Shown piece by piece: positions 30,117 through 34,142 of a stretch of DNA of 34,142 nt. A program made the position numbers and the translations under genes. Position 1 is the stretch's first letter. Each line of letters opens with the position of its first letter. The notes under the pieces were generated by a model. The model saw only the letters and a list, made by a program, of their open reading frames with translations, had not been told where the DNA came from and ran no database searches. This stretch comes from Candidatus Competibacteraceae bacterium (lineage in GTDB: Bacteria; Pseudomonadota; Gammaproteobacteria; Competibacterales; JAHEDQ01). The DNA is taken from positions 1 through 34,142 of the forward strand of contig JAHEDQ010000020.1 in assembly GCA_024641125.1 (NCBI GenBank), in the 5' to 3' direction.

Positions 30117-30837
30117 GGTCTGACTCGACCACCTCGGGACGCCGTGCTCTTCGCTTGAGCCACATCACACCGAGGAGATCGATGATGCCGGCGAAAAGCC
30201 GGTCCAGAGTTCCATACTTGGACTTGCCCTGCCGACGATGGCGGTGGTTGACCTCCACCGAAGTGACGTCCCAACCGGCCCGCTGTACCAGGGCAGGTAG
30301 AAAACGATGCATATGGTCGAAATAGGGCAGCTCGAGGTAGGTGCCACGACTGAACACCTTGAGGCCGCACCCGGTATCCGGCGTAGCGTCCCCCAGCAGG
30401 GTGCTGCGCACGCCATTGGCGATCCGGGAGGACACCCGCTTGAGTTCAGAATCCTGGCGCTTGCGTCTGAATCCGGCGACCATACGGAGTTTGGATGTCG
30501 CTGCGCCTGCTCTCAGCACATCCATCAGTCTGGGGATGTCGGCTGGATCGTTTTGACCGTCGCCATCCAGTGTGGCGATCCACGGCGCCCGTGCCGCGCG
30601 GATTCCGGTCCTTAGGGCCGTGCTCTGTCCGCAGGCTTCCAAGTGTGTAATCACCCGCAACGTTTCAAATCTGTCCCGTGCTTCGACCAACTCCGCCGCA
30701 GTGCCGTCCCGGCTGCCGTCATCCACATAGATGATTTCGAACCGGTAACGCCCGGCCAATGCTGCCTGGATCTCAGTCAGCAGTGGTGAGATGTTACCGG
30801 CCTCGTTATGCACGGGAACGACGACGGTGAGATCCAT
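30103..30837 (-). CDS. GT-2 family glycosyltransferase (ArnC / dolichyl-phosphate mannosyltransferase-like)
   Basis: This is a cytoplasm-facing glycosyltransferase of 244 residues with the GT-A fold. The N-terminal strand is TVVVPVHNEAGNI (4-16). The nucleotide-sugar aspartates are at YVDDGSRDGT (D39, D40), and the metal motif is DGDGQND (D91, D93). No long C-terminal membrane pair is evident. Enzymes of this type load a sugar from a nucleotide donor onto a polyprenyl phosphate, which would supply the GT-39 enzyme encoded two genes downstream. It is the first gene of this three-gene operon. Its promoter should lie in the 30838-31190 region, where I find no clear motif. Confidence 0.86.
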   Translation of the reverse strand: MDLTVVVPVHNEAGNISPLLTEIQAALAGRYRFEIIYVDDGSRDGTAAELVEARDRFETLRVITHLEACGQSTALRTGIRAARAPWIATLDGDGQNDPADIPRLMDVLRAGAATSKLRMVAGFRRKRQDSELKRVSSRIANGVRSTLLGDATPDTGCGLKVFSRGTYLELPYFDHMHRFLPALVQRAGWDVTSVEVNHRHRRQGKSKYGTLDRLFAGIIDLLGVMWLKRRARRPEVVESDHALE

Positions 30838-31321
30838 GACTCGGCAACCGGAGGAACTGCGGGGCGACAGCGCGATGCGCCCGCATCATAAGGCAGGTGA
30901 GTTCGAACCGAAAGCCAAAAGGGGAAAGGTTGAGCACCAAGGTGAACAAGATCAATCCGCAGCGCCTGAGTCCGCGTCAGTTTCGGGTGGAACAGAAGGC
31001 CTGTTTGCCGGTGGCGGTTTAAGGGGTATACGGGTCGGGATACACTCTCGAACCGCTGCGCATTTCAGGATTCGCCGTGCGACCGGGCTCAATCATAGGG
31101 ATCAAGCGGTTGACCCGGGAATGGACCTGGCCATTGTTGATTCGGGAAGCCGGCGGTCGGTGATCTTTCCGGCACTGGTTCGGCAGCGCCTAGGGTGCCT
31201 CTGATTTATTCTGAACGAAGCAGATTGAAGGGTGAGCAGCCTTTCGCCTGCGGTCGTGGTCGGGACGGCATTTCTAGCCGAGGCCGGTCTGTCGATCGGT
31301 CCCCTGAAGCGGCCAGGCCAG
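30838..31321. other. Intergenic region between the glycan operon and the toxin-antitoxin pair
   Basis: About 480 bases carry no convincing gene. A plus-strand open frame overlapping the GT-2 start and running to 31204 has no recognisable features. The only notable element is the transposon-end-like motif at 31192. A GTTCGAACC string near 30910 looks like a tRNA T-loop, but no stems can be drawn around it. Confidence 0.5.
31192..31222 (+). mobile_element. Solo transposon-end-like motif related to the 16803 element
   Basis: AGGGTGCCTCTGATTTATTC (31192-31211), followed by TGAACG, closely matches the left end of the element at 16801-16826: AGGGAGCCCCTGATTTACTC then GTGAACG. It is preceded by CTA, giving CTAG at the junction. 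No matching inverted partner was found within the following 2 kb, so this is probably a remnant. Confidence 0.4.
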
Positions 31322-31349
31322 TTGATAGATCAATCGCTGGCGCTATAAT
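31322..31349 (+). promoter_or_regulatory. Sigma-70 promoter of the toxin-antitoxin operon
   Basis: TTGATA (31322-31327) and a perfect TATAAT (31344-31349) are separated by 16 bases. The antitoxin start codon follows only 16 bases after the -10 box, so the transcript would have almost no leader. Confidence 0.6.
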
Positions 31350-31382
31350 TATGACTACCGTTATATGACTATGGGCATAATT
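31347..31382. promoter_or_regulatory. Candidate autoregulatory operator of the toxin-antitoxin operon
   Basis: AATTATG (31347-31353) and CATAATT (31376-31382) form a 7-base inverted repeat that overlaps the -10 box and the start codon. Inside it, ATGACT occurs twice (31351-31356 and 31365-31370). Phd-type antitoxins commonly repress their own promoter through such palindromes. Confidence 0.45.
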
Positions 31383-31616
31383 TTGGAATCCGAAGTCTCT
31401 AAATCGCAGTTCAAGGCAAAGGCCCTAGAGATACTTCGCCGGGTCGAAGCCACCGGCGAGCCTGTTCTGGTAACAGACCACGGAAAGCCCACAATCGAGG
31501 TGCGCCGACATCGCTCGCTCGAGCGTTCTCCGCTCGACCTGCTTCGAGGCAGCGTCGTGGATTACCTCGACCCGACCGAGCCGGTGGGTGAGCAAGACTG
31601 GGAGGCGCTGACATGA
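31365..31616 (+). CDS. Phd/YefM-family antitoxin
   Basis: This is an 83-residue antitoxin predicted to neutralise the PIN toxin encoded next and to repress the operon. The N-terminal DNA-binding region has the family pattern EVSKSQFKAKALEILRRVEA, then GEPVLVTDHGKPTIEVRRHR. The C-terminal, toxin-binding part ends with EQDWEALT. An alternative ATG two codons later (31371) is equally plausible; neither has a good Shine-Dalgarno, consistent with a nearly leaderless transcript. Its stop overlaps the toxin start (ATGA at 31613-31616). The coding region is less GC-rich than the operons upstream, in line with a mobile origin. Confidence 0.88.
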   Translation: MTMGIILESEVSKSQFKAKALEILRRVEATGEPVLVTDHGKPTIEVRRHRSLERSPLDLLRGSVVDYLDPTEPVGEQDWEALT

Positions 31617-32014
31617 TCGTCTTGGACACCCACGCGTTGATCTGGTGGGTGAACGACGATGAGCAACTCTCCAACGGGGCGCGCAAAGCGATTGAGAAGG
31701 AGATCAGCGGCGAGGATGGACAGGTATTTATCTCGACGATAACCGCCTGGGAGATCGCTTTGCTTGTAGAAAAGGGCCGTCTGACTTTGACGATGGATGT
31801 TAAAGACTGGATTGATACCGTGACCGCTATCGAGGGTGTTCGTTTTGTCCCCATAGATAACGAAGTCGCCATTCAATCGGTGAGACTGCCGGGTGAATTT
31901 CACCCCGACCCCGCCGATCGAATGATCGTCGCGTTGGCTAGACGTCTATCGACCGTTCTGATCACCAGCGATGCGAAGCTCCAGGCCTACAAACACGTAA
32001 AGACGATCTGGTAA
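31613..32014 (+). CDS. PIN-domain toxin (VapC-type ribonuclease)
   Basis: This is a 133-residue PIN-domain endoribonuclease toxin. It begins with MIVLDTHALIWWV, giving the first acidic residue D5. E47 in STITAWEIALL and D99/D102 in HPDPADRMIVALAR supply the other metal ligands. The sequence ends with the expected TSDAKLQAYKHVKTIW core strand and helix. It belongs to the LDTHALIWW-type VapC-like group commonly paired with Phd-type antitoxins. No disruption is visible, so the pair is probably functional. It is embedded in mobile-element remnants. Confidence 0.88.
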   Translation: MIVLDTHALIWWVNDDEQLSNGARKAIEKEISGEDGQVFISTITAWEIALLVEKGRLTLTMDVKDWIDTVTAIEGVRFVPIDNEVAIQSVRLPGEFHPDPADRMIVALARRLSTVLITSDAKLQAYKHVKTIW

Positions 32015-32073
32015 ACAACCCGCTTGGACAGACCATTAACCGGCATTTCCATTCTCTGCCGGGAAATGTACCT

Positions 32074-32126
32074 ATTCCGACCCAAGCTGACCGCCCATTC
32101 CGATTGAATGTGGGCGGTCATTCCGA
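32074..32126. repeat. 23-bp-periodic ATTCCGA repeats with a 10-bp inverted repeat, IS21-end-like
   Basis: ATTCCGA occurs at 32074, 32097 and 32120, exactly 23 bases apart. TGACCGCCCA (32088-32097) and TGGGCGGTCA (32111-32120) form a perfect inverted repeat between them, and a related GGCGGTCA recurs at 32153-32160. Multiple short terminal repeats of this kind, with ATTCCGA cores, resemble ends of IS21-family elements. No istA/istB coding sequence is present, so it would be a remnant. Confidence 0.45.
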
Positions 32127-32219
32127 CGCACCTTCGTCTGAATGCGCAAAATGGCGGTCAACATTTCGCAGATGAAGTAAACAAGTTTTGAGGGATCGGC
32201 AGCCGCTACCGACGATGTT

Positions 32220-32350
32220 TCATTCGGGCAATGCTGACCGTTGGGCAAGGGCAGAGTAACCGTCGCCAGGCAGAGCCGGGGGATGGTTACTGTGGGTGAA
32301 GGTCCCGTCGCGACTCAATAACGGCGAACGAAGTGAATCGCAACGGCAGT
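32220..32350 (+). other. Structured-RNA-like remnant, possibly from a group II intron
   Basis: The segment holds GTAACC (32256-32261) pairing with GGTTAC (32285-32290). It then carries GTGGGTGAAGGTCCCGTC-like sequence and CGAACGAAGTGAATCGCAAC. Such strings remind me of the RNA part upstream of some group II intron maturase genes. No maturase is present. This is recognition by eye only. Confidence 0.22.
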
Positions 32351-32388
32351 AAGTATTCCCAGGCGTTGCCGGTGGATGCTTGCTCGAT

Positions 32389-33372
32389 TCACCCCGGCAT
32401 CGGCCCCAGATCCCCCGCCTTCAGATGCGTCTACCTGCGCAGCAGGCGTCGGTCCTTGCGCCCGGTGATGCCGGCGACCTCCATGATGTTCAGCCCTTTC
32501 TCGAACAGCCGGGTGGTGGCCTCGTGGCGCAGGTCGTGGAAGCGGAGGTCCTCGATACCGGCCCGGCGTATTGCGCGCATGTAGGAGCGCTTGACCGCCT
32601 CGGTGGTAACGCCGGGGAAGACATCGCCGTGCAGGCTGCGGGGCAGGTCGCGCAGTGCGGCGACGGCGGTCATCGACAGTGGCACGGTCCGCGCCTCGCC
32701 GTTCTTGGTATCCGGCAGGTGTGCGGTACGACGCTGCAGGTCGATGTGCTCCCAGCGCAGGCGCAGCAGTTCGCCCTGGCGCATCGTGGTCTCGGTTGCC
32801 AATTGCACCAGCGGCAGCAGCCAGCGATTGCGCGCCTTGCGGCAGGCCGTGAACAGGCGGATCTCTTCGCCGGATTGCAGGCGCCTGTCGCGTGGTCTCC
32901 CACCGGCGGGCAGTTTGATGTCGCGGACCGGATTGTGGGCATAGATGCCCCATTCCTTGCGGGCGACCTCGAAGACATGGCCGAGCAGGACCAGGTCGCG
33001 TTTCACGGTCGCCGGGGTGACCTTGCACAGGCGCTCGTCGCGCCAGTGCGCGATGTCGACGCCGCGGACCCCGGCGACAAATCGGCGGGCGAGGGGATGG
33101 CGCATCATCAGGCGCAGGCGGTTGGTCTCGGGCTCGGCCCCCTTCTTCAGTGGGGTGACCTCGTCGAGGTGGCGTTCGAGCAGTTCCTTGAGGGTGGTCG
33201 ACTCGGCCTCGGCGCGTGAGACGAACGCGCCTTTGTTTATCTCGACCTCGATGGCGCGCGCCCACCGCTCGGTCTCGGCACGGGTCTCGAAGGTCCTGGT
33301 CTGCAGCGGGTGGCCCTTCTTTCGGACCTGGGCCTGTCACTGGTAGGGGCCGCGTTTTCTGAAGGAGGCCAT
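32389..33372 (-). pseudogene. Tyrosine recombinase (phage-type integrase), inactivated by two nonsense codons
   Basis: One continuous frame from ATG 33372 to the TGA at 32389-32391 encodes a recognisable tyrosine integrase. Codon 12 is TGA (33337-33339) in the context PYQ-stop-QAQVRKKG, where family members have Trp. Codon 314 is TAG (32431-32433) in LLRR-stop-THLKAGDL, exactly where the nucleophilic Tyr of the RRYTHL motif belongs. Other catalytic residues are R198 (TTMRQGEL), K223 (DTKNG), and H279 with R282 (FHDLRH). The second catalytic His of the ITGHK motif is Arg at 305. No frameshift exists: a 225-residue product from 33108 to 32431 is still open, but it would lack the nucleophile. 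It probably drove integration of the mobile segment around it. Confidence 0.85.
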
Positions 33373-33386
33373 CGCCACACTGCGTT

Positions 33387-33398
33387 CGTTCGCGAACG
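33387..33398. repeat. Perfect palindrome upstream of the integrase
   Basis: CGTTCGCGAACG is a perfect 12-base palindrome 15 bases upstream of the integrase ATG. It is flanked by CACAC (33376-33380) and GTGTG (33400-33404), giving a longer imperfect inverted repeat. It could be a regulator or recombinase site. Confidence 0.35.
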
Positions 33399-33400
33399 AG

Positions 33401-33419
33401 TGTGACAAGGCTGTGACAA
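33401..33419. repeat. Direct repeats TGTGACAA, 11 bp apart, upstream of the integrase
   Basis: TGTGACAA occurs at 33401-33408 and 33412-33419. The 11-base spacing places both on the same helix face. On the integrase strand they read TTGTCACA, and each contains a -35-like TTGTCA. They may be integrase arm-type sites or promoter/operator elements. Confidence 0.35.
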
Positions 33420-33519
33420 ATAATCGTTTGGGAACCTAATCGAGGGATTTCGTGGTTCCTGACTGTGAATCAACGTCGCGGCTCATGCGAATGGCGCCGG
33501 CGCCTTCATCGGCGGCGTA

Positions 33520-33879
33520 TTGGCCGCCAATCTGCTCGGTAACATGGAACGCAGAACGGAGGCCGAAGAGGTACAAGCCGCGGCGTCTGTTCAAAGGGCT
33601 CAGGCAGCCCCGGCGGCTTCCTCCAGTCAGTCGCCGGAAGCGCGTATTCAGCAGCAGGACAAATTGGCGGCGGGTGGCTACATCACGCCGCAAGAATACA
33701 AGGCACAGAAACAGGCCATTCTCGACAGCATTTGGTATCGGCTCTCCAATCAGTGGCCGGAGCACTTGGACCTGCTCCGGCCTTTGCTGTCTCACAAAAC
33801 CGGACCCAGCATGGCCAGGGCGTTATTCCAGAGTCTCTTGTGCATGGGCCAGGTCTGGACCGTTGCCTCAGTCACCTGA
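33520..33879 (+). CDS. SHOCT-domain protein, probably 5'-truncated
   Basis: The C-terminal half contains a SHOCT motif: RIQQQDKLAAGGYITPQEYK followed by AQKQAILDSI. These short modules sit at the ends of many bacterial proteins. The available start is TTG 33520, but the frame is open back to 33469. The upstream codons encode a Gly/Ala-rich hydrophobic stretch (GAGAFIGGVLAAN) that looks like native protein, with no ATG before the in-frame stop at 33466. The gene therefore seems to have lost its 5' end at the boundary with the integrase region. Its 3' part overlaps the convergent cardiolipin synthase gene by 88 bases, and a hairpin lies inside it. The true C-terminus may also be altered after DSI. 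Confidence 0.55.
   Translation: MAANLLGNMERRTEAEEVQAAASVQRAQAAPAASSSQSPEARIQQQDKLAAGGYITPQEYKAQKQAILDSIWYRLSNQWPEHLDLLRPLLSHKTGPSMARALFQSLLCMGQVWTVASVT
33755..33785 (+). terminator. Hairpin between convergent genes, possible terminator
   Basis: GGCCGGAGCA (33755-33764) and TGCTCCGGCC (33773-33782) form a perfect 10-base stem with an 8-base loop, followed by TTT. It lies just past the stop of the minus-strand cardiolipin synthase gene (33792), whose transcript would run into it, and inside the end of the SHOCT frame. The T run is short, so termination strength is uncertain. Confidence 0.5.
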
Positions 33880-34142
33880 CTGGACTGGGCGATGTAGCTT
33901 TGCTGTCGCTCGCGCATCTGGGCGCTGAGCACCGGATCATAGAGCAGGATGTTGTTTTCGTAATTCAGTTCAAAACTGCGCCGGTCCATGTTGGCCGAGC
34001 CGATCAAGGTGAGCTGGCCATCCACCACCATGGACTTGGTGTGGAGCAGGCCGCCGGCATACTCACGGATGCAAACGCCCGCCGCCAATAATTCCTCATA
34101 GTAGCTGCGGCTGGCCGCGGCTACGATCCAGGAGTCGTTGCG
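33792..34142 (-). CDS. cls: Cardiolipin synthase (phospholipase D family), C-terminal part
   Basis: This is the 3' end of a membrane phospholipid synthase gene; the frame is open through the window edge, giving 116 residues. The second HKD catalytic motif is intact: LLHTKSMVVDGQLTLIGSAN, with His, Lys and Asp in register, followed by MDRRSFELNYENN, which is diagnostic of bacterial cardiolipin synthases. Upstream residues include SRSYYEELLAAGVCIREY, also typical. The protein ends normally with a short basic and hydrophobic tail (KRLWNNALAMLGPVL). The enzyme condenses two phosphatidylglycerols to cardiolipin at the inner membrane. It converges with the truncated SHOCT gene. Confidence 0.87.
   Translation of the reverse strand, partial: RNDSWIVAAASRSYYEELLAAGVCIREYAGGLLHTKSMVVDGQLTLIGSANMDRRSFELNYENNILLYDPVLSAQMRERQQSYIAQSSQVTEATVQTWPMHKRLWNNALAMLGPVL

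Follow-up and report, generated by a model that had tools for sequence, protein, structure and literature searches.

A probable recently inactivated and displaced relic of a tRNA-targeting tyrosine integrase, with damage clustered in its catalytic tail

Integrase pseudogenes and remnants are common in bacterial chromosomes. Tyrosine integrases with an arm-binding domain, recognised by PF00589 and phrog_1, are carried by phages and genomic islands. The integrase family closest to the gene described here occurs in MAGs of Gammaproteobacteria (L016-L024, L029 and L030), where it is associated with tRNA-Val(CAC) or tRNA-Pro(CGG). The gene start is found approximately 100 bp from the 3' end of tRNA-Val(CAC) in L017-L019, L021, L023 and L024, and at the same distance from tRNA-Pro(CGG) in L020, L022 and L029. 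In L030, a 45-bp duplicate of the tRNA-Val 3' end lies approximately 6 kb away at the far end of the locus, as expected of attL/attR. Ten relatives (L016-L024 and L029) are full length, and the C-terminal motif that holds their second catalytic His and nucleophilic Tyr reads GHKDLRMLxRYTHLKAEDLA. Viral contigs yielded only distant relatives, with at most 44% identity. A literature search returned nothing directly on a relic of this kind.

The window analysed here is a stretch of 34,142 nt that makes up the whole of contig C56. Its integrase gene runs on the minus strand as a single frame of 327 codons followed by TGA, with no indels (Table 1). The product matches the catalytic domain PF00589 (E = 2e-25, 89.9 bits against a curated cut-off of 27.1) as well as phrog_1, and is 69-81% identical to the ten full-length relatives over the gene. 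By homology the encoded protein is predicted to be an arm-binding-type tyrosine integrase. It shares with such integrases the fold, the motifs and the catalytic residues R198, K223, H279 and R282, all of which are preserved, and differs from them in a stop codon at the nucleophile, an Arg in place of the second catalytic His/Trp, a stop at codon 12 and a damaged tail. Past the TAG the frame reads THLKAGDLGPMPG up to the TGA. W12, H305 and Y314 are present in 10/10 full-length close relatives. The intact frame, the two premature stops and the Arg are thus as the initial annotation described them, although it left the strand unstated, and the relatives bear out the residues that it expected at all three positions. 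The next in-frame start after the codon 12 stop is codon 89, and initiation there would delete the arm-binding domain. This gene cannot give an active recombinase.

Table 1. Features of the integrase locus (window coordinates).
Feature	Position	Strand	Basis
Phd/YefM antitoxin gene, either cargo or resident	31365..31616	+	PF02604
PIN-domain toxin gene (VapC-like)	31613..32014	+	PF01850
Tyrosine integrase pseudogene, 327 codons + TGA	32389..33372	-	PF00589 and phrog_1 matches; 69-81% identity to intact relatives
Damaged catalytic tail, codons 301-327; 8/20 invariant residues altered	32392..32472	-	Comparison to relatives
Premature TAG, codon 314, the tyrosine nucleophile	32431..32433	-	Alignment to relatives
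Codon 305, CGC; Arg for the second catalytic His	32458..32460	-	Alignment to relatives
Premature TGA, codon 12 (Trp in relatives)	33337..33339	-	Frame reading and relatives
Conserved non-coding segment upstream of the integrase gene; joins it to the tRNA 3' end in relatives	33373..33465	-	Homology to relatives

Homology between the window and the loci of the relatives is limited to 32388-33465. This segment consists of the integrase gene and the upstream arm and stops just before the tRNA. Like the tRNA-associated family, the window copy retains the gene and approximately 90 bp of upstream att-arm DNA; unlike that family, it has no adjoining tRNA, no cargo homologous to that of the relatives and no far-end duplicate. 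The window contains no tRNA gene and no match to tRNA-Val or tRNA-Pro. No suitable att-like direct repeat flanks the gene in 30600-33900 (the contig ends at 34142), and neither a group II intron nor another known RNA adjoins it. Apart from the integrase, no phage or island genes were recognised in the window, and the only candidate mobile cargo is the Phd/PIN toxin-antitoxin pair, whose origin could be cargo or resident. The initial annotation proposed that loss of the integrase fixed an island in place. No surrounding mobile island was found here for a dead integrase to lock in, and the gene lacks the flanking tRNA expected of it. Elsewhere in the genome, the surroundings of position 6291 on contig C19 (locus L138) show synteny with the tRNA-Val(CAC) site in the relatives. 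tRNA-Val(CAC) itself was detected neither there nor among the 36 tRNAs found in the genome, a draft without some tRNAs.

These results suggest, with a probability of roughly 0.8, that the gene is a recently inactivated, displaced relic of a tRNA-targeting, arm-binding-type tyrosine integrase. The original element would have used a tRNA 3' end as its insertion site, and rearrangement or insertion at a secondary site may then have separated the integrase and the upstream att arm from that tRNA. Because no element was left to mobilise, the gene would have lost selection. As it stands such a relic matters little; it is a clean and recent example of a common kind of pseudogene. It resembles other bacterial integrase pseudogenes (for example those at L030, L035, L048 and L049) in its stop codons, its lost att partner and its isolated position, but differs from them in lacking indels and in the unusual concentration of its damage within the last 27 codons.

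The clustering was quantified using invariant columns, defined as those constant across nine close relatives. In codons 301-327, 8/20 invariant columns were changed (H305R, L308R, M310L, Y314stop, E320G, A323G, K325M and L326P), compared with 7/152 before them (hypergeometric p = 3e-5). A scan test corrected for position gave p = 0.0018 for this cluster, against at least 0.035 for every other relative. Codons 1-300 are nearly clean apart from the codon 12 stop. The "three precise hits" counted in the initial annotation therefore understate the damage, as the tail alone carries eight changes at invariant residues, all within a stretch of 22 codons.

Branch codon models gave the same contrast. 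Over codons 1-300 the window branch had a dN/dS of 0.085 against a background of 0.086, while in the tail it had 0.21 against 0.025. When a neutral segment was added at the end of the branch, it was estimated at approximately 0.43 substitutions per codon in the tail and approximately 0 in codons 1-300; setting the body to 0.05 lost about 2 log units and setting it equal to the tail cost 9 log units. Such a distribution is not explained by uniform neutral decay alone. NG86 pairwise estimates disagree with the codon model, as they show a 2-3-fold rise in dN in the window copy over the whole gene. The GC3 of the window copy is high (0.87, against 0.57-0.81 in the relatives) and the NG86 counts are consequently saturated, so the codon model was preferred. 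The result for the body thus depends on the model. The body appears to have been inactivated recently, as the initial annotation proposed, given that the gene has no indels whichever estimate is used and that, by the codon model, codons 1-300 have the same dN/dS as in intact relatives.

The simplest cause of the tail cluster is one local event or a consensus error. The damage probably arose in a single such event (a mutation tract, a conversion or an error in the draft consensus) rather than by many independent hits, and selection is a less likely source than either a consensus error or a local tract of mutation or conversion. No donor for the tail sequence was found in the same genome. Sequencing or assembly error, in the form of consensus errors or a strain chimera, could in principle lie behind part of the damage or all of it, the tail cluster in particular. 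The genome is a draft of 357 contigs, 94% complete and 3.3% contaminated, and the mutated tract is short, lies where the homologous segment ends on its 3' side and occurs only once in the genome. However, the gene is free of indels, Pfam domains are intact in most of the other window genes tested, and comparable lesions occur in relatives, which makes error an unlikely source.

We also considered whether the product might have been retained as a non-catalytic DNA-binding protein, such as a repressor or an att-site binder. The nucleophile and tail would have been lost first while purifying selection kept the body, and the codon 12 stop would have come later or be leaky (UGA-C context). The codon-model values for body and tail are those expected of such a history, but a single local event accounts for the tail equally well. 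Moreover, with W12 a stop, translation from codon 89 would leave no arm-binding domain, and a similar truncated form was seen in 0 relatives. We regard retention of such a protein as very unlikely. The uneven damage, a constrained body next to a wrecked tail, raises a modest and testable question about the way recombinases die.

Loss of the integrase appears, from the sequences compared, to be a recurrent and ordinary fate in this family, as at least four relatives are broken differently with no pattern in common. The integrase of L030 has frameshifts and a stop, that of L035 a stop and a frameshift, and that of L048 stops and deletions; in the L049 fragment the catalytic Arg is changed to Ser and the nucleophilic Tyr to Cys. 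Isolated 3'-terminal fragments of the same family, fused to unrelated DNA, were observed at L049:4998-5231 and L045:5001-5231. No second intact copy was found in the genome of the window, whose other PF00589 genes gave no match to the window integrase. The initial annotation suggested that inactivation was possibly selected and fixed the island in place; such selection would immobilise an island useful to the host. Catalytic residues are indeed among those struck, but so are non-catalytic ones, neither an island nor an att pair was found around the gene, and the broken relatives were damaged in unrelated ways. We found no evidence for selected inactivation and consider it highly improbable. 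The initial annotation thus read the sequence correctly and over-interpreted its meaning.

At both premature stops a suppressor tRNA could in principle supply the missing residue, and recoding of TGA as Trp and TAG as Tyr would restore these two positions in a functional integrase. Suppressor tRNAs, which the initial annotation proposed looking for, were not found: none of the 36 tRNA genes detected has a CTA or TCA anticodon, and tRNA-Trp is the normal CCA type. This evidence against suppression is strong but not complete, as the draft misses some tRNAs, for example Tyr. Window genes use all three stops (TGA 16, TAG 6, TAA 4), and recoding, which has almost no probability, would repair neither H305R nor the remaining changes in the tail.

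The genes around the relic appear by similarity to be ordinary metabolic and transport genes. Those recognised in the window include transporters, hydrolases, a flotillin, a glycosyltransferase and a phospholipase D family gene, and only the toxin-antitoxin pair lies between the integrase gene and the glycosyltransferase gene. At 31184-31235, approximately 50 bp is matched at 39 or more other places in the same genome with 84-95% identity. Because the L102 copy of this repeat terminates in inverted GAGCCTCTGATTTA, the repeat resembles one end of a MITE or IS element, probably truncated in the window. An open frame at 33469-33879, immediately beyond the integrase homology, encodes a SHOCT-like motif (DKLAAGGYITPQEYKAQKQAIL) and a region rich in glycine. 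Its 5' end is conserved but shows no clear start codon, and the event that brought the integrase relic here may have truncated it.
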